Source of the DNA: Alicycliphilus denitrificans K601
GTDB taxonomy: Bacteria; Pseudomonadota; Gammaproteobacteria; Burkholderiales; Burkholderiaceae_C
Assembly: GCF_000204645.1 (NCBI RefSeq)
Contig: NC_015422.1
Coordinates: forward strand, 868,001-932,000
DNA: 64,000 nucleotides
Direction: 5' to 3'
In this document: positions 48,559-60,113 of the stretch, piece after piece
How the letters are laid out: the number at the start of each line of letters is the position of its first letter
Numbering within the stretch: the stretch's first letter is position 1
Notes under the pieces: generated by a model
Database searches by the model: none
Seen by the model: the letters and a program-made list of their open reading frames with translations, nothing else
Told to the model about the DNA's origin: nothing
Made by a program: the position numbers and the translations under genes

Positions 48559-48567
48559 CTCTTGGTT

Positions 48568-48617
48568 TCCTGGTCGGGGTGAGAGGATTCGAACCTCCGG
48601 CCTCTACGTCCCGAACG
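48568..48617. repeat. attL: left 50-bp direct repeat with tRNA-Pro 3' fragment
   Basis: Identical over 50 bp to 60034-60083. It contains the last 47 nt of tRNA-Pro (CCA complement at 48571-48573) and is a nonfunctional tRNA remnant, the original chromosomal 3' end. Confidence 0.95.
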
Positions 48618-48668
48618 CCTATTTATTGCCAATAAAATCAATGTGTTGTACGATGAAATCCACTATTT

Positions 48669-48686
48669 GGGACACTTCGGGGACAC
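48669..48686 (+). promoter_or_regulatory. Left integrase arm-type repeats
   Basis: GGGACAC at 48669-48675 and 48680-48686, exactly 11 bp apart, between attL and the integrase start. The same motif occurs three times inside the right end of the island. Confidence 0.65.
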
Positions 48687-48692
48687 GGGCCG

Positions 48693-49784
48693 GTGGGCAC
48701 TATTACAAAACGCGGAGAGCTGCAGTGGCAGGCCAAGGTCAGACGCCGTGGCTTCCCTGCGCAGTCACGAACCTTCTCCTACAAAGAGGACGCTGAACGC
48801 TGGGTTCGGGCGATGGAGCGCGAGCTGGAGACGACCGGTTTCATCGACCGCCGGGAGGCCGAGCGCAACACCTTGGCCGACATCCTTTTACGGTATGAGA
48901 AGGAAGTCACGCCGCAGAAGAAATCCGCAGTGATGGAGTCCACCAAGATCAAGCTCTTGCTCAGGGATGCCGCCCTTACCCAGATCAAGACTTCAGCCTT
49001 GAGCAGTTCGATTGTCGCCGCCTGGCGTGACCGCCGCCTCAAGCAGGTCAGCGGGGCAACGGTCAACCGTGAGATCGACATTCTGTCGGCGGCGATCAAC
49101 CACGCGCGGCGTGAGTGGGGCATTCATATCGAAAACCCCATCCCCTTGGTGCGGCGACCGGAGAAGGCCAAAGCCAGGGACAGGCGCTTCTCGGATGAAG
49201 AGATGGTGTACCTGCTCGCCGCTTTGACGGGCGGTGAGCGTCTGTCCGATGGTACGTTCAGCAAGGGGGCTCGCAACCCGTGGCTGCAGCCTCTGGTGGA
49301 GCTGGCCGTGGAGACGGCCATGCGCCGAGGGGAGCTGTTGTCATTGCGTTGGGAGTGTGTGAATCTGGACAGGCAGACGGCCTTCCTGCCCGACACCAAG
49401 AATGGCGATTCGCGTATGGTGCCCTTGTCGCGCAAGGCTGTGGCGATCCTGCAGGAGTTACAGGGCTTGGCTGGTGCAAACAATGCCCATGAGGGGCCGG
49501 TGTTCCAGACGACAGCAATGGCGCTGCGCAAAGGATTCAAGCGCGCCCTGGAACGTGCCCAGCAGCAGTACAAGGAAGACTGCCGAGCAGCCAGTAAACG
49601 CCCTGTTCGTGGCTTTCTGGAGGATGTCCATTTCCATGACACCCGCCACGAAGCTGCATCGCGCTTGTCGGAAAAGCTGAGCAACGTCCTGGAGCTGTCC
49701 GCCGTGACCGGTCACAAGGACTTGCGCATGCTCAAGCGTTACTACCACCCCCGTGCCGAAGACCTCGCGAAAAAGCTGGGGTAG
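48693..49784 (+). CDS. Tyrosine-type site-specific integrase
   Basis: A 363-aa protein. It has an N-terminal arm-binding domain (GELQWQAKVRRRGFPAQSRT; AP2-like/DUF3596-like), a core-binding helical domain (about 60-150) and a catalytic domain. Catalytic residues are Arg211 (AMRRGEL), Lys236 (DTKNGDSR), His315 and Arg318 (HDTRHEA), His341 (TGHKDLRM) and Tyr350 (KRYYHP), so it is intact. The GTG start at 48693 is the first codon giving the conserved MGTITKRG opening. It probably inserts the island at tRNA-Pro. Confidence 0.94.
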   Translation: MGTITKRGELQWQAKVRRRGFPAQSRTFSYKEDAERWVRAMERELETTGFIDRREAERNTLADILLRYEKEVTPQKKSAVMESTKIKLLLRDAALTQIKTSALSSSIVAAWRDRRLKQVSGATVNREIDILSAAINHARREWGIHIENPIPLVRRPEKAKARDRRFSDEEMVYLLAALTGGERLSDGTFSKGARNPWLQPLVELAVETAMRRGELLSLRWECVNLDRQTAFLPDTKNGDSRMVPLSRKAVAILQELQGLAGANNAHEGPVFQTTAMALRKGFKRALERAQQQYKEDCRAASKRPVRGFLEDVHFHDTRHEAASRLSEKLSNVLELSAVTGHKDLRMLKRYYHPRAEDLAKKLG

Positions 49785-49832
49785 ATAGGCCGCCTGGACT
49801 GTGGACAAGGCTGTGTTCTGCACGGGTTGTCC

Positions 49833-49933
49833 TCGTTACATCGCCCCTTGATGGCTCGATACATCGCCCCTGATTGGGTTCTGGGGCAGGGTTCGTTAGA
49901 TCGCCCCTTGTTGGTTCGATAGATCACCCCTTG
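49833..49933 (+). repeat. Four iteron-like direct repeats (consensus TCGWTASATCRCCCCTTG)
   Basis: Copies at 49833-49850, 49856-49872, 49893-49910 and 49916-49933: two pairs, each with 23-bp spacing, starting 37 bp apart. They lie in the 321-bp non-coding region between the integrase and the first HTH gene. They could be plasmid iterons or repressor sites. Confidence 0.75.
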
Positions 49934-49939
49934 TCTATA

Positions 49940-49970
49940 CCTATAGGGTGTTCCTATAGATTTCCTATAG
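49940..49970 (+). repeat. Three CCTATAG repeats
   Basis: CCTATAG at 49940-49946, 49953-49959 and 49964-49970, in an AT-rich stretch immediately after the four longer repeats. Confidence 0.5.
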
Positions 49971-50038
49971 TTTTTGCTGGTAGCGCTTGCAGTTTCGGTG
50001 GAAAAGTCTGCGGGTTGGCTGGGGCAGGTCAGGCTCAA

Positions 50039-50067
50039 TTGTCCGCAAGCGTGCCACGGTCTAATAT
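50039..50067 (+). promoter_or_regulatory. Predicted promoter of the first HTH/nucleotidyltransferase module
   Basis: TTGTCC (50039-50044), 17-bp spacer, TAATAT (50062-50067). An inverted repeat AATAT-N5-ATATT (50063-50077) overlaps the -10, a plausible autoregulatory site for the HTH protein. Confidence 0.6.
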
Positions 50068-50105
50068 GTAAAATATTTCAGACATTCTCAAATTCACCAC
50101 CAACC

Positions 50106-50597
50106 ATGAACCTGATCGAAATTGGCCATGTCGTGGGCGCCCGACGCGCCGAGTTGGGACTGACCCAGGCGCAACTGGCACACCTAAGCGGCCTGTCGCG
50201 CCAGACCTTGGTTGGGCTGGAAAACGGCACCTTGAGTGATTTGGGTGTCAATCGTGTTGGACAGGTCATGGCGGTGCTGGGGCTGGATAGCGCCCAGCCG
50301 GATACCCAGGCGCGGCGCAAAAAGCGCGGCTTGTGGATGGCGGCCAAGACGGCCAGTGTCAGCTATGCGGATGAACTTGCCCCCGAGGTGCTGGAGCAAG
50401 TCCTGGCCGGTGGCGATGTACCGCCTTCGTTCGCACCACACCTGACCCATCTGCTCGATGAGGCACCGGTGCCCACCGTTGTGATGGCGGTGGAAGAGGC
50501 CGCAGCGCATGCGCACCTGCCGCCTCGGCAGGTCTGGCGCAACGTCGCAAAACTCGCGCAGTCGCTATCTGTTCACCGTCGGGCGCTGTGGGCATGA
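50106..50597 (+). CDS. XRE-family HTH antitoxin/regulator (AbiEii partner)
   Basis: A 163-aa protein with an N-terminal HTH (residues about 6-62; GARRAELGLTQAQLAHLSG then LSRQTLVGLENG) and a C-terminal region rich in Ala/Val helices. It overlaps the downstream nucleotidyltransferase by 4 bp (ATGA), the common arrangement where the HTH protein neutralises or represses the enzyme. The ATG at 50106 is chosen because upstream in-frame codons pass through the promoter. Confidence 0.82.
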   Translation: MNLIEIGHVVGARRAELGLTQAQLAHLSGLSRQTLVGLENGTLSDLGVNRVGQVMAVLGLDSAQPDTQARRKKRGLWMAAKTASVSYADELAPEVLEQVLAGGDVPPSFAPHLTHLLDEAPVPTVVMAVEEAAAHAHLPPRQVWRNVAKLAQSLSVHRRALWA

Positions 50598-51250
50598 AAG
50601 TCGATTCGCTGCCCAGCGGGGCTTGGCAGAGCCTGTTTCCGCGTGCGTTGGCGTTGATCGACGACATCAGCAGGTACGGCGGCATAGCGAACCCGTTCTG
50701 GACCTTGGGCGGTGGAACCGTGTTGATGTTCCGCTACCGCCACCGGCTCAGCAAGGACATCGACATTTTTGTGCCTGATCCGCAGTACCTGGGCTTTGTC
50801 ACCCCACGGCTGAGCGATACGGCGGCGGATATGACCGAGGACTACACGGAACAGCCGGGCATGTTCGTCAAGCTCCAGTTCGAAGAGGGTGAGGTGGACT
50901 TCGTATCCGCCCCCAATCTGCTCGATGACGCCTGGGATACCTGGGACATCGGAGGCCGCGCCGTCAAAGTGGAAACGGCTGCAGAGATCATTGCCAAGAA
51001 GATGTATCACCGTGGCGACCGTGCCACTGCACGTGACCTGTTTGATTTGGCGTTGGTGATCGAGCGAGAGCCGCAGCAGCTTTTGGTGGCAAAGCCATTC
51101 TTGTTGCGCCATCGGAGTGCCTTCCTGACTCAGATTCGGCAGCCGCATGCCAGTCTGCAGGCTGCGTTTGGCGCTATCGCTACGCTGGATTACACACCCA
51201 GCTTCGACCACTGCGTGGCCGTGGCGGGTGGATTCCTGGACAGCCTGTAG
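50594..51250 (+). CDS. Nucleotidyltransferase toxin, AbiEii/AbiGii family
   Basis: A 218-aa protein with the DNA polymerase beta-type motif LGGGTVLMFRYRHRLSKDID (near residues 39-58; GG...S.D.D), a later acidic position EGEVDFVSA, and the KKMYHRGDRATARDLFDLAL segment (near 138) that marks AbiEii enzymes. AbiE-type enzymes act as type IV or related toxins and can abort phage infection by modifying tRNA. Paired with the HTH gene upstream. Confidence 0.88.
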   Translation: MKVDSLPSGAWQSLFPRALALIDDISRYGGIANPFWTLGGGTVLMFRYRHRLSKDIDIFVPDPQYLGFVTPRLSDTAADMTEDYTEQPGMFVKLQFEEGEVDFVSAPNLLDDAWDTWDIGGRAVKVETAAEIIAKKMYHRGDRATARDLFDLALVIEREPQQLLVAKPFLLRHRSAFLTQIRQPHASLQAAFGAIATLDYTPSFDHCVAVAGGFLDSL

Positions 51251-51342
51251 CGGTTCAGGTGGCGCAGCCAAACCAAGCCGACCTTGCCGACAGTGGGATG
51301 GGGATGCAGGGTTGTTGTAGAGGTTCGTGAAGCGTATAAAAA

Positions 51343-51393
51343 AATGATCAATAATTTGACCAAAAAATGGAAATTAGTTAAATTAATGATCAA
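51343..51393 (+). promoter_or_regulatory. Promoter and paired TGATCA operators of the second module
   Basis: AATGATCAA occurs at 51343-51351 and 51385-51393, 42 bp apart (about four helical turns). Between them are TTGACC (51356-51361), a 17-bp spacer and TAAATT (51379-51384). The second operator lies directly before the ATG at 51394, so the transcript would have almost no leader. Confidence 0.65.
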
Positions 51394-52080
51394 ATGAGTT
51401 CTCATGAATCGCATGTCCTCCTTGAACGCCAACTGCTTCTGCAGCTTGGCGACCGTCTCAAGCGCCTGCGCAAGACCCAGCGCCTGGGCACGGTAGAGCT
51501 TGCGGCGCGCGCAGGCATGACGCGCAACACCCTGCGCGCGGTCGAGTCGGGCGACCCCGCACCATCCATCGGCACCTACCTGCGCGTCATGTCCATTTTG
51601 GGCGTTGGTGGCGATCTGGCGTTGCTGGCAGGCGATGTCTTGCAACCGGCGCCTGCGGGCTCCGCCGCCGCACGTTCCCGGCATCCCGCGCCCGTGGTGC
51701 ATGTGCGCGTGCGCGCCGACCCAACCAGGCACCAGCTGCAGGACTTGCAAAGCCTGGCCCTGCATGAAGAAGCCGTGCGGCTGGCCAAGGCCGACCCTGC
51801 TCAGGTTCAGCAGGCAAAGGACACGCTCCAGCGCTGGCTGGCTACTGGAGATGTTCGCTCTGCAGCCTTGTGGCGTGAGTGGGAGGACATCCTGAAGGCG
51901 GGCGCCTGGCGCAAGGTGTTGGCCCGCACCCGCCGCGCGCAGCAGCTGCGCCAGGCATCACCGCTGGTCACGATCCTGCCGCCCGAGACCCGTCAGGCCA
52001 TCCTGCAGCAGGTGAGCGAACTCAAGAAGGGGATTGCATTCGGCGATGAGCTGGGCGATGCGCCCGAGGAGCAACCATGA
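51394..52080 (+). CDS. HTH regulator/antitoxin of the second nucleotidyltransferase module
   Basis: A 228-aa protein with an XRE-type HTH at about residues 18-75 (LGDRLKRLRKTQRLGTVELA then RAGMTRNTLRAVESGDPAPS), a Pro/Ala linker, and a long helical C-terminal part. It overlaps the downstream gene by 4 bp. The start codon follows the second operator immediately and has no Shine-Dalgarno, consistent with near-leaderless translation. Confidence 0.82.
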   Translation: MSSHESHVLLERQLLLQLGDRLKRLRKTQRLGTVELAARAGMTRNTLRAVESGDPAPSIGTYLRVMSILGVGGDLALLAGDVLQPAPAGSAAARSRHPAPVVHVRVRADPTRHQLQDLQSLALHEEAVRLAKADPAQVQQAKDTLQRWLATGDVRSAALWREWEDILKAGAWRKVLARTRRAQQLRQASPLVTILPPETRQAILQQVSELKKGIAFGDELGDAPEEQP

Positions 52081-52622
52081 CGCGCGAAGAGCTGGAGCAC
52101 ATCATTCGTGCCAGCGGTGACATCACCGACCAGTACGAATTTGTCATCGTTGGCAGCCAGTCCATCCTGGGCGCGGTGCCCAGGCCCGAGGACGTGTTCA
52201 CGGTGTCCATGGAAGCGGACATCTATCCCCTGCAGGCACCAGAGCTGGCCGACAGAATCGACGGCGCCATCGGCGAAGGCTCGCAGTTCCACGAAACCTA
52301 CGGCTACTACGCCCAAGGTGTTGGGCCGGAAACGGCGTGCCTGCCAGCGGGCTGGATGCAGCGCGTGCATCGCATCCAGAACCGCAATACGCAGGATCGG
52401 ATTGGCTACTGTCTGGACGTTCTCGACCTCTTCCTCGCCAAGGTTGTGGCCGCACGAGAGAAGGATCGGGAGTTCTGCATTGCACTGCTGCAGTACGGCT
52501 ATGTGAACCTGGAGGCCGCCCTGGCACTCGTGGACAACATGCCCCTCGATGCCAAGGCGCAGCAGACCTTGCGGGCGACGATACGGCGGTGGGCAAGGAA
52601 TGCCGGTCGTTCGACTGCTTGA
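52077..52622 (+). CDS. DUF6036-like nucleotidyltransferase protein
   Basis: A 181-aa protein. FVIVGSQSILGAVP (residues about 22-35) resembles the GS motif of nucleotidyltransferases and SMEADIYPL supplies acidic residues; LDLFLAKVVAAREKDREF (near 122) matches the helix after the active site in this family. The usual DxD is ExD here. As the partner of an overlapping HTH gene it probably forms a second toxin-antitoxin-like pair. Activity is inferred. Confidence 0.7.
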   Translation: MTREELEHIIRASGDITDQYEFVIVGSQSILGAVPRPEDVFTVSMEADIYPLQAPELADRIDGAIGEGSQFHETYGYYAQGVGPETACLPAGWMQRVHRIQNRNTQDRIGYCLDVLDLFLAKVVAAREKDREFCIALLQYGYVNLEAALALVDNMPLDAKAQQTLRATIRRWARNAGRSTA

Positions 52623-52994: not shown

Positions 52995-53332
52995 TCACTT
53001 GCCTGCCGCGTTCAAGGCGCTGATCAGAATCAGTACGACGAAAACGGCGGCTGTGCATGCGAGCGCGCGAAACACGCCCCACTTCTTGTGGAGCACCACC
53101 GCGCTGCTGGATGTGTCCCACAGCGTCGTGCCGGTCTTCGTGAGCCGCCGATACGCGAACAGTTGCGTGAACAGCGCGACGAATGGAATACCCAGCCCCA
53201 CGCCTTGAACAAAGACCAGAAAAGAGCGGTTCAGCGATTCTGAGAAGGAAAGCACGTTGCCGTCCGCATGTGCGACCCGGATGCCGAACAGCCACTTTGC
53301 CGGGGTGGTTCCGAACAACGAAAGCAGAAGCG
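52995..53332 (-). pseudogene. RDD-family membrane protein, 5' end removed by IS21
   Basis: The remaining part reads LLLSLFGTTPAKWLFGIRVA at the IS junction, then two hydrophobic segments ending in FVVLILISALNAAGK. This matches the middle and end of an RDD domain (GxTPGKxLxGIRV motif). The N-terminal part, including the first transmembrane helix, is missing where the IS21-family element begins at 53333. A fusion frame into the IS end exists but is unlikely to be functional. Confidence 0.8.
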
Positions 53333-53405
53333 TGTTGATTTCCACGCAAAGCTGACCCACCATTTCCATCGAATCTTGACCCACCCTGGTTCGTGAGCTT
53401 CACGC

Positions 53406-54209
53406 TCACGTTGTGGATAAGTTCTTGGTCGCCTTCTCCTTCTTGGTGGTCTGTGGTGGTTGCTGTGCGGAGCTATTCTTGAACCGGTAGCTGTCATTGC
53501 CGGTCTCAAGAATATGGCAGTGATGCGTGAGCCGGTCCAGCAGCGCCGTGGTCATCTTGGCATCTCCGAACACATTGGCCCACTCGCTAAAGCTCAGGTT
53601 GGTGGTGATCACGACGCTCGTGCGCTCGTACAGCTTGGACAGCAGGTGGAACAGCAAGGCTCCTCCTGACGTGCTGAATGGCAGGTAGCCCAGTTCATCC
53701 AGGATCACCAGATCGGCATAGGCTAGGCGGTGCGCGATCTGCCCCGGCTTGCCCTGGGCCTTCTCCTCTTCCAGTGCATTGACCAGCTCCACCGTGGAGA
53801 AGAACCGCACCCTGCGGTGATGGTGCTCAATGGCTTGCACCCCGAGGGCTGTGGCGATGTGGGTCTTGCCCGTACCCGGTCCACCCACCAGCACCACGTT
53901 GTTGGCGTTCTCCAAGAATTCGCAGCGGTGCAACTGGCGTACCAATGCCTCGTTCACCTCGCTGTGGCTGAAGTCAAACCCAGCCAGGTCCCGGTACGCA
54001 GGGAACCTGGCCACCTTGAGTTGGTAGGCCACAGAGCGCACCTCCCGCTCGGCGGTCTCGGCCTTGAGCAGTTGGGACAGGATGGGCTGCGCTGCGTCGA
54101 AGGCCGGCGCACCTTGCTCAGCCAGTTCCGCAACCGCCTGGGCCATGCCGTGCATCTTGAGCTCGCGCAGCATGATCACGATGGAAGCGATGGCAGGGTC
54201 ATGACGCAT
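53406..54209 (-). CDS. istB: IS21 helper ATPase IstB
   Basis: A 267-aa AAA+ ATPase. Walker A is [17 protein letters not shown] (near residue 107) and Walker B is [14 protein letters not shown] (near 170). It stimulates target selection by IstA. It overlaps the istA end by 11 bp. Confidence 0.95.
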
Positions 54210-55749
54210 AGCGCACCTCCCTCAATTGGTCATAGCGCAGCACGTTGGCCTGGGGTTCCACAGACAGCTTGAGGGCCTGGGGCGAGGTGACCGGTGCTGG
54301 GGCGGGCTTACCGTCCAGCAGGCGGTGCAGCACGTTCAGGATGTGGGTCTTGCTGGCAGCCCCTGACTCCAGTGCCAACTCCACTGCAGCGAGCACAGCT
54401 TGTTCATCGTGGTGCAGCACCAGAGCCAGAACCTCCACCATCTCTCGGTCGCCGCCTGGCTGCTTCAAGAGGGCGGCCTGCAGGCGCTTGAAGGCTGCTG
54501 GCAGTTCCAGGAATGGAGCACCATTGCGCAAGGCCCCGGGCTTGCGCTGCAGCACTGCCAGGTAGTGGCGCCAGTCGTACACGGTCTGTCCCGCACCATG
54601 GTGGTTACGCTCGATCAGGCGCTGATGCTCGCACACGATCTGGCCTTCGGCGGCGACCACCAGGCGATCGGCGTAGACCCGCAGGCTCACCGGCCGATTG
54701 GCATAAGGCGCCGGCACGCTGTAGCGGTTGCGCTCGAAGTGGACGAGGCAGGTGGGTGAGACGCGTTTGGTGTGCTCCACAAAGCCATCGAAGGGCCGGG
54801 GCATTGGCATCAAGTCGTTCTTCTCCTCGGTCCAGATGTCCGCGACGGTGCCCGGCAGCTTGCCGTGCTCGATCTCGTGCCACAGCGCCACGCAGCGCTC
54901 TTCAAGCCATGCATTGAGATCGGGCAGGCTTGGGAATGGCGGCACTACCTGCCACAGGCGATGGCGGGCATCGCGCACGTTCTTCTCCACCTGGCCCTTC
55001 TCCCAGCCCGAAGCAGGATTGCAGAACTCGGCCTCGAACAGGAAGTGGCTGACCATGGCCGCAAAGCGCGCATTGACGTCGCGCTCCTTGCCACGGCGCA
55101 CCCGGTCTACGGCGGTGCGCATGTTGTCGTAGATGCCACGGCGGGGCACACCGCCCAGGACTGCGAATGCATGGTTGTGGGCATCGAACAGCATCTCGTG
55201 CGTTTGCAGCGGATAGGCGCGCAGGTAGAACGCTCGGCTGTGGCTGAGCTTGAAGTGGGCTACCTGCAGCTTGGTGCGCACGCCGGCGAGAACAGCCCAG
55301 TCCTCGCTCCAGTCGAACTGGAAGGCCTCACCCGGACCGAAGGCCAGGGGAACGAAGGTGCCGCGGCCAGTGGTCTGCTGGGCCACAAGGCGCTGCTCGT
55401 GCCAGAGGCGGGCAAAGGCCGCTACGCGGTTGTAGGAGCCGCCATAACCGAGCGCCTGCAGATCCACGTACATCTGCTTGACGGTGCGGCGCTGCTTGCG
55501 GGATCGGCCAGCTTCCGTCTTGAGCCAGCCAGCGAGCTTCAAGGCGAAGGGATCGAGCTTGGATGGACTGACCCGCTTGGCATAGTGCGGCTCGGCCTCG
55601 CCTACGCGCAGGTACTTGCGGATGGTGTTGCGCGAGAGGCCCGTGCGGCGGGCTATCTCCCGGATGGACAGCTGCTCTCGCAGGGCCCAGCGCCTGATGA
55701 CACTCAGTGTTGCCACGTCTATCACTCCTGGTCTCCTGCTGCTCAGCAA
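54199..55749 (-). CDS. istA: IS21 transposase IstA
   Basis: A 516-aa transposase with an N-terminal HTH ([20 protein letters not shown]), a DDE core beginning [12 protein letters not shown], with the second Asp near [15 protein letters not shown] and Glu in [11 protein letters not shown], and a C-terminal region. It appears full length. Confidence 0.95.
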
Positions 55750-55833
55750 AGCAGCAGGTTAGGGTTAGTACGTGGGTCAGGTTTGGATGGAAATCCCGGG
55801 GGTTAGTGGGTCACTTCTGCGTGGAAATCAACA

Positions 55834-55887
55834 CTCGGGCACGAAAAGCCCACCGGTGGTGAAGGAAAGCCGGTAGGGTGCGGTCAT
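55834..55887 (-). pseudogene. brxA-like (DUF1819) gene stub, 18 codons
   Basis: Only the first 18 codons remain, ATG at 55887 overlapping the stop of the WYL regulator (ATGA). They encode MTAPYRLSFTTGGLFVPE and run into the IS21 right end. The YxLSFTxGGL pattern is how DUF1819/BrxA proteins begin. In BREX loci brxA follows brxR. The identification rests on a short sequence plus gene order. Confidence 0.62.
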
Positions 55888-56774
55888 GCGGCCAACTCCT
55901 TGTTCGAGAGGTAGCCGGGAGCGAGTACAGCAGTTTCGACCCCGTAGAGACTCAAGTGATTTTTGAGCCACAGGCGATATTCGGGGCCTCGCAGGCGGTG
56001 GTCTGGTGAGCAGTCCACACTCCATTTGCGCAGCACATATCCGGCAATGGCGGCGCGCAGCTTGAGGCGCAAGCTGCCATCATGCAAGCCGTAGTCCATG
56101 CGGGTAATTTCGGGACGCGGTTGGTCAGGGTGTGGAACAAGGTCGAGTTCTACGATGCGTGCCCACTGTGCGTCGTGCTCTGGTGTTTCGTGACGCTGCG
56201 GCGAACTTTCTGCCTGTACGTTGGGTGCTTGAATGCGGGTAAGCACAAAGTCGCGGAACTCATTGCTCTTGCGGTCGAAAGCGCGGACATGCCACCGCAG
56301 CCCGGTATCGAGCAGGGCAAAAGGAACGATCTGGCGCTGGGATGCGCCGCTGCTGATGGAGTGGTAGCGTATGTCCAGCACCTGTTTCAGGTGGATGGCT
56401 CGGGTGATGCAGGCCAGCACCTCCAGGTCAGGGTGCGAGAGGCATGAAGGCATCAGACAGGGCAGCAACGATTCAGACGATGGCGCGATGGCATCGCCCA
56501 GTTGTTCGGCCAGCCATGCCAGGGCCTGATCGGCGGATGTGGGGAACAGGGGGGAGAAGGCCGAGCCAAGCAGGTAGCCCTTGCTCCGGCTATCAAACTC
56601 GATGTTCTGGGGGGCGAGATCTCTGTACACCGCCAGGTCGCGCGATGCCGCTGCCGACTGGATGCCAAAACGGAGCATCACATCCGGGCGGCGCACTTCG
56701 CCGAGAAAACGCAAGCGCAATTCGATGTGCCGGAGGCGATCTTGTTGCGATTGCGGAATCGGTGCGAGTGACAT
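55884..56774 (-). CDS. WYL-domain transcriptional regulator, BrxR-like
   Basis: A 296-aa protein. It has an N-terminal winged helix (residues about 10-75; IELRLRFLGEVRRPDVMLRF then GIQSAAASRDLAVYRDLAP), a WYL domain (about 130-205; LRWHVRAFD in place of WYL), and a C-terminal beta-rich domain. This architecture and wording match BrxR, the regulator upstream of BREX phage-defence operons; CapW-type regulators are the main alternative. The brxA-like stub overlapping its stop favours BrxR. The gene itself looks intact. Confidence 0.8.
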   Translation of the reverse strand: MSLAPIPQSQQDRLRHIELRLRFLGEVRRPDVMLRFGIQSAAASRDLAVYRDLAPQNIEFDSRSKGYLLGSAFSPLFPTSADQALAWLAEQLGDAIAPSSESLLPCLMPSCLSHPDLEVLACITRAIHLKQVLDIRYHSISSGASQRQIVPFALLDTGLRWHVRAFDRKSNEFRDFVLTRIQAPNVQAESSPQRHETPEHDAQWARIVELDLVPHPDQPRPEITRMDYGLHDGSLRLKLRAAIAGYVLRKWSVDCSPDHRLRGPEYRLWLKNHLSLYGVETAVLAPGYLSNKELAA

Positions 56775-56824
56775 GAAGTTACATCAAGAGAAGTCCATCG
56801 AGTATATCTATAGAAAATGACATT

Positions 56825-56841
56825 CGTATCAAAAAGATACG
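56825..56841. promoter_or_regulatory. Palindrome upstream of the BrxR-like gene
   Basis: CGTATC-AAAAA-GATACG, 50 bp upstream of the regulator start on the minus strand. It overlaps a TTGATA that could be a -35, with TATACT-like sequence nearer the gene. A candidate autorepression site. Confidence 0.5.
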
Positions 56842-56859
56842 ACTCTTCGTGGGGATGCT

Positions 56860-56892
56860 GGGAGGCCATGGGCGAGGTGCCCATGGCCTCCC
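56860..56892. other. Strong hairpin between the second recombinase and the BrxR-like gene
   Basis: A perfect 14-bp stem (56860-56873 with 56879-56892), 5-nt loop, no U-tract on either side. It lies 14 bp past the recombinase stop. Confidence 0.5.
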
Positions 56893-56905
56893 GATATGGC
56901 CGACT

Positions 56906-57955
56906 CTATGGCTTTGGCTCACCACGTCGCTTGGTGCGCGGCCCGCTAGGACGCGGCTTCACTGGCCGTTCAGCGTCAATCTGCAACGGACGAAGGCGGT
57001 GCCCTTTGCTTGCCTGGCCGGCGGTGCCATACAAGCGCCGGGTTTCGGCGCTTATGTGTCCCAGTCCACGGCATGTGGCTTCGTCATCGCCGTTGGCCTT
57101 CAGATCGGCGGCAAACTGGTGGCGGAAGCAGTAGGCCGTGATCGGTTGCCTGTGATTGGGCCACAGGCTGCGCGCCAGGCGGCGTATCTCCACGGTCAAA
57201 TTGACGGCGCTCCTGACCTGCGCGAACACCCGTGGTTCCGGCTGAGTATCCAACAATTCGTTGACGACAACGACCAAGGGGTGAGGATCATTGGAGTCAT
57301 AGGAAATCGTGCGAAGCGGTTGGCCCTGCGAGCCTTTGACCTTGGCGCCCCTGATGCGGAAGTGGATCAGTAATTTGCCTGTGACTTCGTCTTTCCCGCG
57401 CCATACGTCAATGCCGTCCACCAGCTCACTTGGGCGGCACCCGGTCAGGGTCAACACAATGAGCGAGAACAGGTACCGGCCACCTACAGCGCGCTTGCAC
57501 AGGTCAATGCGCCAATTGGCCGGTAGCCCGGCCAGTGACTGACGCTTGCTGCGGCGTTTGGCACGCTCACCTGCCATGCCTTCCTGCCGCAGACGTTGCA
57601 GCGCTTGCAGGTGTTTCAGGTGCAGAAAAAAGCGCAGGTGCAGAATTTCTGCTGCGGGCATGACCGGAGCGCTCATCTCTCGCGCCAGTTGTTCCTGCTG
57701 CGAGCCGAGGAAGTGTTCCAGCGCTACTAGGCGTTTACGAAATGTGGAAATACGGGTTGTTGATTGAACGACCGCAAACAGGCCGCCGTCAACGATCAGC
57801 GCACGCTGAAGGAGCTGCTGCGCTTGGCGCTTGTATTCAACTTTCGTCTTATACGAGGTGCTGCGCTGCTCTTGAATATCTGACGAGCGCATGGCATTCA
57901 GGACTGCCTGGCAGTGGTTTAGCAGTTCCTGCATCTTGAAAAGCAGTTCGTTCAT
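56906..57955 (-). CDS. Second tyrosine recombinase-like protein
   Basis: A 349-aa protein. The C-terminal half has the tyrosine recombinase core: Arg174 (LTGCRPSEL), a Lys in GAKVKGSQG, Arg278 (YCFRHQFA), His300 (GLGHISAETRRLYG) and Tyr309. The first His of the HxxR box is Tyr275, which may lower activity. The N-terminal about 140 residues are helical and basic. The ATG at 57955 is preferred; a longer frame upstream is non-conserved. It may act on the element itself or be a plasmid resolvase-like enzyme. Confidence 0.75.
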   Translation of the reverse strand: MNELLFKMQELLNHCQAVLNAMRSSDIQEQRSTSYKTKVEYKRQAQQLLQRALIVDGGLFAVVQSTTRISTFRKRLVALEHFLGSQQEQLAREMSAPVMPAAEILHLRFFLHLKHLQALQRLRQEGMAGERAKRRSKRQSLAGLPANWRIDLCKRAVGGRYLFSLIVLTLTGCRPSELVDGIDVWRGKDEVTGKLLIHFRIRGAKVKGSQGQPLRTISYDSNDPHPLVVVVNELLDTQPEPRVFAQVRSAVNLTVEIRRLARSLWPNHRQPITAYCFRHQFAADLKANGDDEATCRGLGHISAETRRLYGTAGQASKGHRLRPLQIDAERPVKPRPSGPRTKRRGEPKP

Positions 57956-58074
57956 GCGGCCTCTTGTGCAGGAGAGCCGCGCCGAGGGCATGGGGAACCC
58001 CGCAGGGGTGCCCCGTGCTCGCGCACGCGGATTAAAAGGGATTAATAAAGGATTAGGCACACTTGCGTGATGCA

Positions 58075-58186
58075 TTTAACCTATTGTCGATATTTGATTT
58101 TTTCCTATTTGACCTGTGGATGGCTGGGTTGCTGGAGCGGTATCGTGGGGTTGCTGGAACGGGGTTGCGGGGTTGCTAGAACGGTA
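58075..58186 (-). other. Candidate plasmid replication origin: AT-rich stretch plus three 22-bp iterons
   Basis: GGTTGCTGGAGCGG (58127-58140), GGTTGCTGGAACGG (58149-58162) and GGTTGCTAGAACGG (58171-58184) repeat on an exact 22-bp period, beside an AT-rich stretch (58075-58115) and a weak DnaA-box-like TGTGGATGG (58115-58123). They directly adjoin the end of a TrfA-like replication gene. This layout resembles an iteron oriV. Confidence 0.55.
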
Positions 58187-58546
58187 TTAGCTGCGAAGTT
58201 TCCGGGGCTTGGCTGCCTTCTTGACCAAGTGCAGTCGCTGCGCATCGCTGCCCTTCTTCTCGACATGCACCAAGTCGCCGCGCACTGCGTAGCTGAACCC
58301 CTCGCCGTGGGCTGCGCCGGCTCCTGCAACGGCGTCCAGTGCCTTGCGCAGCGTCTTTGCATAGTCGCTCATTAGGGTGGCCTCGCTGCCGCAAAGGCGG
58401 TGCAACGTTTCGACTTTGAGCGGGAACGGCTTGGCGTGGCTGGCGTAGAAGCCGTGCAGCCATTGAGCCAGCGGCTGGCCGTCCAGTGCGTGGCGCACGG
58501 CCCAATCTACCTGCGTGAACTGGTCGGCCCCGTACAAAGCCCGCAG
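58187..58546 (-). pseudogene. TrfA-like plasmid replication initiator, C-terminal fragment
   Basis: About 120 codons, from an IS21 end at 58547 to a TAA at 58187. The residues read FTQVDWAVRHALDGQPLAQW, then LHGFYASHAKPFPLKVETLH and RLCGS, resembling the C-terminal winged-helix part of TrfA-type initiators. The N-terminal part is gone. A frame fused to IS sequence exists but lacks a proper start. It indicates that the island includes plasmid-derived DNA. Confidence 0.65.
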
Positions 58547-58570
58547 TGTTGATTTCCACGCAAAGCTGAC
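58547..58570. mobile_element. Orphan IS21 end fragment (24 bp)
   Basis: TGTTGATTTCCACGCAAAGC plus TGAC, identical to the left end of the complete IS21-family element (53333-53356). It interrupts the trfA-like gene and is itself cut by the IS3-family element at 58571. Confidence 0.85.
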
Positions 58571-58604
58571 TGAACCGCCCCGGCTTTCAAGGAGGCCGAT
58601 TGGT

Positions 58605-59519
58605 TTAAGTTGACACCTCTGTCGAGGTGTCGCTGACGGCGAGTTGCCTCCAGTAGTTTGCCTCAGCTTCTGCCGGAGGGATGCCCCCAATCGGCGTGAG
58701 CAGTCGGACGTGATTGAACCAGTGCACCCACTGCAGGGTGGCCAGCTCCACGGATTCCCTGGTCTTCCAGGGTCCCCGGCGGTGAATCAGCTCGGCCTTG
58801 TACAGCCCGTTGATGGTCTCGGCCAGTGCGTTGTCGTAGCTGTCACCCCGGCTGCCCACTGATGGCTGGATACCCGCCTGGTCCAAGCGTTCGGTGTAGC
58901 GTATGGAAACGTATTGACTGCCCCTGTCGGAATGGTGCGTCAAGGCATGGGCTGCTGGCTGGCGGTCATACAGCGCCTGCTCCAGCGCATCCAGCACGAA
59001 GTCCGTTTGCATGCTGCGGCTGACCCGCCAGCCCACGATGCGCCGGGCGTACACGTCCACCACGAAGGCCACGTACAACCAGCCCTGCCAGGTGGAGACG
59101 TAGGTGAAGTCCGACACCCACAGCTCGTTGGGCCGGCTGGCCTTGAATTGCCGGTTGACGTGGTCCAGCGGGCACGGTGCCGATGTGTCCGGCGTGGTGG
59201 TGCGCACTGTCTTGCCACGGCGTGCTCCTTGCAAGCCCATGGCACGCATCAGGCGCTCGACCGTGCAGCGCGCCACTGCGATGCCCTCGCGGTTCATCTG
59301 CAGCCAGACCTTATCGGCCCCGTAGACCTGCCAGTTGGCGTGCCACACGCGCTGGATGTCGGCTTTCAAACCCTCGTCACGCTGGACGCGTTGACTGCGC
59401 AGTTGCGGGTTGCGTTGCCGGGCTGCGTGGCGCCAGTAACACGACGGGGCCATCTGCAGCACCCGGCAGATGGGCTCGACCCCGTAGTCATCACGGTGGC
59501 GGTCGATGTAGTTCTTCAA
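58605..59519 (-). CDS. IS3-family transposase OrfB
   Basis: A 304-aa protein with an HTH_21-type region ([20 protein letters not shown]) and an integrase core with DDE residues: [22 protein letters not shown] and [14 protein letters not shown]. It begins with TTG at 59519 overlapping the orfA stop (TTGA), so it can be made by coupling or by -1 frameshifting. Confidence 0.93.
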
Positions 59520-60033: not shown

Positions 60034-60083
60034 TCCTGGTCGGGGTGAGAGGATTCGAACCTCCGGCCTCTACGTCCCGAACG
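60034..60083. repeat. attR: right 50-bp direct repeat within tRNA-Pro
   Basis: Perfect copy of 48568-48617, covering the tRNA-Pro sequence from the anticodon loop through CCA. Confidence 0.95.
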
Positions 60084-60113
60084 TAGCGCTCTACCAGGCT
60101 AAGCTACACCCCG
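60037..60113 (-). tRNA. tRNA-Pro (anticodon CGG)
   Basis: A 77-nt cloverleaf with encoded CCA. The acceptor CGGGGTG pairs with CACCCCG, the D-arm contains AGCCTGGTAGAGC, the anticodon loop is TTCGGGA (CGG), and the T-arm contains GTTCGAATC. The 5' third is chromosomal and the 3' part comes from the island attachment site, leaving the gene intact. Confidence 0.96.

Follow-up and report, generated by a model that had tools for sequence, protein, structure and literature searches.

Regulators of the BrxR type described from Escherichia fergusonii pEFER and Acinetobacter sp. NEB394 are encoded ahead of brxA (PMC9122601, PMC9122589). According to PMC9122601, 164 of 347 BrxR-type homologues lie near known defence systems, with BREX the commonest. 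The Acinetobacter BrxR site, according to PMC9122589, comprises two 10-nt half-sites 5 nt apart and overlaps a predicted −35. PMC9122601 also reports that an upstream paired repeat is not present for all published homologues, and BrxR_Efer is able to repress via a single repeat.

The window considered here is the whole 64,000-nucleotide stretch of the Alicycliphilus denitrificans K601 genome from positions 868,001 to 932,000 of contig NC_015422.1, and coordinates below are those of the window. In it, a regulator gene of this type is followed directly by 18 codons of brxA and then by an IS21-family element. With a probability of roughly 0.87, the locus is the promoter-proximal remnant of a deleted type-1-like BREX operon, once island cargo and now a self-repressing relic. 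It appears to be a clear case of defence-island decay, though a fairly ordinary one. A narrow literature search turned up no title that deals with the reduction of a BREX locus to brxR.

The regulator gene, brxR (55884..56774, minus strand), is open and specifies 296 amino acids, with a Pfam WYL match at E 5e-12. The sequence-only reading had noted its resemblance to BrxR, and this is borne out by the best match, the solved BrxR 7qfz (residues 3-289 against 7qfz residues 7-293, E 2.6e-78); CapW and BrxR_Acin score below 7qfz, and PafBC is weak. The similarity spans nearly the full length of BrxR, i.e. its wHTH, WYL and C-terminal dimerisation domains, and, as judged by these alignments, the product is a full-length BrxR-family protein. 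In plasmids and in phages the brxR region has no near-identity DNA match, and the 696 plasmid records that match its product in a protein search are all below 60% identity. The window itself apart, no relative above 73% was found in 398 genomes drawn from the family and none above 62% in an order-wide draw of 399 genomes at E <= 1e-100; a second copy of this brxR is absent from the seven genomes searched in the genus.

What lies behind such regulators is diverse. For 81 distinct fetched relatives (41-73% identity), BrxA or BrxF is encoded within 1.5 kb downstream in only 10 (BrxA in 6, BrxF in 4) and HsdM within the same distance in 25, while the other 46 have no downstream match to any of seven reference proteins, a set small enough that BREX may still be present there. 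The regulator alone is therefore not proof of BREX. The sequence-only reading had named relatives with the same regulator followed by unrelated genes as evidence against its BREX assignment; such relatives do occur at these identities, and it is still the stub that decides for BREX. Four relatives (57-62% identity, at L053, L060, L082 and L096) are immediately 5′ of BrxF-like genes, which suggests that BrxF-type BREX loci, too, can be headed by this family.

The stub (55834..55887, minus strand) begins where the brxR TGA overlaps an ATG as ATGA (GCATGACC), and its 18 codons, read from 55887 to 55834, encode MTAPYRLSFTTGGLFVPE; the IS21 end that cuts it appends TGT TGA (C, stop) to the frame. 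As had been suspected from the letters, these codons are the start of a brxA: full-length BrxA protein P0239 has an identical start, 18 residues of 18. A 14-residue core of the stub was compared with 121 BrxA proteins (the BrxA of genome G091 as query plus 120 listed of its 778 matches), and 10 to 14 of the 14 positions match in every one. The match falls among residues 1-20 in 120 of them and at residue 43 in P0134, which has a longer N-terminus. Beyond BrxA residue 30 the best core match, as a control, is 3-5 of 14 in 120 of the 121, the exception being taken as P0134, and the likeness of the stub thus exceeds chance. Profile searches had been proposed as a check on the stub, and they divide: as exact DNA it matches PADLOC BrxA model PDLC02443 at E 0.0052 (longer frames at 0.026 and 0.054), but Pfam and NCBIfam give no match to the 65-aa frame that holds it. 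The G091 BrxA itself starts MASRYRLSFTTGGLFVQE and stands behind a broken relative of this regulator; at E <= 1e-40, the order-wide draw of 399 genomes contains no BrxA besides that of G091. These comparisons of protein starts identify the stub as the start of brxA.

The element that ends the stub is, as the sequence-only reading held, of the IS21 family (53333..55833, minus strand). It has TG...CA ends, an istA-like gene (54199-55749) and istB (53406-54209; IstB_IS21 E 1.6e-80), both on the minus strand, in keeping with a family that combines IstB and a Mu-type transposase between inverted TG...CA ends. Its other border cuts an RDD-family gene on the same strand (52995..53332) that lacks its 5′ half, matching the RDD profile only over positions 63-133 of 137, and whose open frame now begins within the IS21 (to 53384). 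The borders being a 5′ piece of brxA and a 3′ piece of a different gene, and brxA never resuming, DNA has been lost or moved, and the rest of the BREX operon is gone from this place. Simple insertions of IS21-family elements leave a short target duplication, which is lost after recombination. Eight full-length copies of this IS21 are present in the genome plus partial ones, providing ample substrate for recombination; seven of the eight, the window copy included, match the query at 100% identity. Seven copies were found with both ends; all of them have the terminal TG and CA, and none has a target duplication, so that its absence here is not diagnostic. The left end of this IS21 is also matched over 25 bp at 58546..58570 (plus strand), where the match and an IS3-like element adjoin a C-terminal TrfA-like fragment (58187-58690), probably a plasmid relic within the island.

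In this genome, BrxC was not found by a search that matches 5 of 5 other genomes chosen for BREX genes, among them G181 weakly and G091 only through a scrap. BrxA was likewise not found by PF08849; the own-genome search matched 0 of 14 named controls, positives being supplied by the 398-genome family draw (14 match), and the profile misses some BrxA classes, those of G181 and of the congener G226 among them. PglZ was not found in a search that matched only two archaeal controls, nor PglX in one that had no positive control. In the window and the fetched loci, where brxB and an N-terminal piece of brxL were sought, both are absent at this locus. With brxC, pglX and pglZ not found, the locus is a remnant and not a BREX system. 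Given the blind spots of PF08849 and the weak or missing controls for PglZ and PglX, BREX of another type may be present at some other place in the genome.

The scale of what is missing can be judged from G181, whose regulator, at 73% identity, is the closest relative with DNA (L110). There, the regulator stop and the ATG that follows share the same overlap (ATGA), part of the putative operator is conserved, and an integrase C-terminal scrap, 56% identical over residues 324-380 to the integrase encoded at 56906..58075 of the window, lies upstream of brxR. In contrast to the window, brxA to brxL are complete: PADLOC assigns BrxA, BrxB, BrxC, two HEC-02-type genes, PglX, an AbiU-like gene, PglZ and BrxL after the regulator, in an operon of ~16 kb in all. 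Its BrxA is of class PDLC02453, whereas the stub is of PDLC02443. The 60% identical regulator of G716 (L087) overlaps into a BrxA similar to that of G181. The earlier suspicion that the remainder of the operon had been deleted accords with the cut RDD gene at one border and with the intact operon of G181 in the same arrangement. The relatives compared as DNA reach 73% identity, and a near-identical one with BREX standing between brxR and the RDD gene is not among them.

The setting is an 11.5-kb island at tRNA-Pro(CGG) in which the locus occupies a cargo slot. The right border is the tRNA gene itself (60037..60113, minus strand; repeat copy at 60034-60083), the left attachment repeat is a 50-bp copy of its 3′ end (48568..48617), and a tyrosine-recombinase integrase gene (48693..49784, plus strand) marks the left end. 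A second, divergent integrase gene (56906..58075, minus strand) lies directly upstream of brxR; its product is a probable tyrosine recombinase by a phrog_1 match (E 1.7e-4), a Pfam integrase match being absent. The congener G226 has an island at the same tRNA-Pro site (G226:C1:3534868-3577878; L141-L144), with window positions 48567-52599 matching at 93% and the second integrase at 89-91% DNA identity over most of its length, though interrupted there. On this DNA identity, the second integrase belongs to the backbone that the two islands share. At 49974-52622, in a stretch common to both islands, an HTH gene is twice paired with a nucleotidyltransferase gene (AbiEii, DUF6036), each pair possibly a toxin-antitoxin system. 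The G226 slot of ~33 kb contains MkoA, MkoB, BrxF, the C-terminus of BrxC, PglXI, BrxHI, PglZ and BrxA, which from their gene order we take to be a type 3-like BREX with Mokosh beside it. Different defence cargo therefore occupies the slot in the two genomes, with the DUF6036 gene on one side of it and the second integrase on the other. That G226 has another BREX type with the same integrase and tRNA suggests one backbone holding different BREX types.

The course of events that best fits these observations would be as follows. A type-1-like BREX (brxR-brxA-brxB-brxC-...-pglX-...-pglZ-brxL) would once have sat as cargo in the tRNA-Pro island, and an IS21 end would have come to lie behind the 18th codon of brxA. 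The rest of the operon, together with the 5′ part of the RDD gene, would then have been lost, either as copies of the IS21 recombined with each other or through a deletion next to the element; we infer both the route and the age of this loss. To judge from intact G181, the missing stretch would be ~16 kb or more. Presumably BrxR still binds an operator by its own promoter and represses itself, with only the stub and the IS21 now directly downstream.

An alternative is that a complete BREX was never here, a truncated brxR and 5′ brxA fragment having come beside an IS21 in an island exchange. The differing cargo of the slot in the congeners lends this some color, as do the eight IS21 copies and their lack of target duplications, which suggest repeated recombination. 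Pairing of regulators with BrxAs is also pertinent. When 120 listed of 4622 regulator matches were set against 185 listed BrxAs and paired by equal longest-contig size, 16 pairs resulted where 50 shifted sizes gave 1.04 on average and 3 at most, a point in favour of the BREX reading. Fifteen of the pairs are on contigs of at least 2 kb, their regulators 68-78% identical to brxR, and the sixteenth is on a 1.26-kb contig, too short for both genes. Among the matches listed, and on contigs of at least 2 kb, none of the 25 regulators that are 84-100% identical (own entry excluded) is paired with a listed BrxA, as against 15 of the remaining 74. The loss might accordingly predate, and reach beyond, a single recent event, and the nearest relatives may have lost BREX too. 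However, G181, with its similar integrase scrap followed by brxR and a complete BREX, illustrates that an entire cassette can have this gene order, and arrival as a fragment is unlikely.

The palindrome that the sequence-only reading had placed at the regulator is present 50-68 nt upstream of the brxR ATG (56824..56842, minus strand). This putative BrxR operator, TCGTATC-TTTTT-GATACGA, has perfect 7-bp arms and a 5-nt spacer, with 8 of 10 pairs when the arms are taken as 10 nt. A 15-nt core, TCGTATCTTTTTGAT, is common to the DNA upstream of brxR in the window and in G181, which is otherwise diverged; it lies 68 nt before the ATG in the window and 78 nt before it in G181, whose second arm is degenerate. 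A consensus promoter for brxR was not found. Between the integrase stop and the putative operator, an inverted repeat with perfect 14-bp arms around a 5-nt loop (56860-56892) lacks a T run; weighed as an operator or a terminator, it is absent from the aligned DNA upstream of the G181 brxR.

Whether a repressor of this kind serves a purpose away from its own locus is a separate matter. An orphan BrxR might be kept as a regulator in trans of another promoter, e.g. that of a second BrxR-family locus, a possibility which the sequence-only reading had left standing beside that of a regulator with nothing to control. The gene is open, after all, and a 58% identical paralogue (G000:C1:2148176-2149027) is followed by one gene without assigned family, HsdM, HsdS, HsdR and a SMODS nucleotidyltransferase gene (G000:C1:2133000-2152500; L112, L103); the single-repeat repression by BrxR_Efer speaks on the same side. 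Yet a genome search that tolerates one mismatch finds the full putative operator at a single place, and the inverted repeat of the paralogue, TCATCA-N3-TGATGA, is unlike it, so that control in trans is very unlikely and the orphan brxR is better explained as a relic.

Another possibility involves the IS21 itself. Since brxR, the stub and istA-istB are on one strand, a BrxR-controlled promoter could read through the stub into istA-istB, and a phage-responsive repressor would then gate the IS21 transposase. On the brxR strand the stub contains two weak terminator-like hairpins, 4 such sites being present in 3 kb against 2.8 expected. If such read-through were real, infection would be coupled to transposition from a defence-cargo slot, a highly unlikely arrangement. 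That the regulator stems from another defence system and the stub is BrxA-like by chance deserves next to no weight, few though the relatives with BrxA or BrxF nearby are, since the stub is identical to a BrxA start at 18 of 18 residues and has the same position and overlap as in G181.

As the remnant of a deleted operon, the locus is a clean fossil, the defence operon having been lost while its repressor stays, and it offers a natural setting for studying BrxR and its operator without BREX. A parallel of a kind is the remnant in G091 (L104), where a BrxA of the stub class (PDLC02443) is behind a brxR relative and the operon has likewise decayed. There, unlike in the window, it is brxA that is open and brxR that is broken, and a brxC piece of ~94 residues is found. 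Long genes without family match and a trypsin-like gene come after the G091 remnant.

An operon with a related brxA is that of Methylomonas koyamae pLM6 (NZ_CP023670.1), whose BrxA shares 44% identity with that of G091, the protein with the start that matches the stub, and whose pglX and pglZ are annotated BREX-1. It differs from the window in that brxA to brxL are present and that brxA is preceded by a small HTH gene in place of a WYL gene. The BrxR proteins of pEFER and NEB394 (PMC9122601, PMC9122589) are homologous to that of the window over nearly the full length, and upstream of their genes, too, are paired repeats set 5 nt apart. The window departs from both in that its putative operator has 7 perfect pairs and the operon under brxR is gone.
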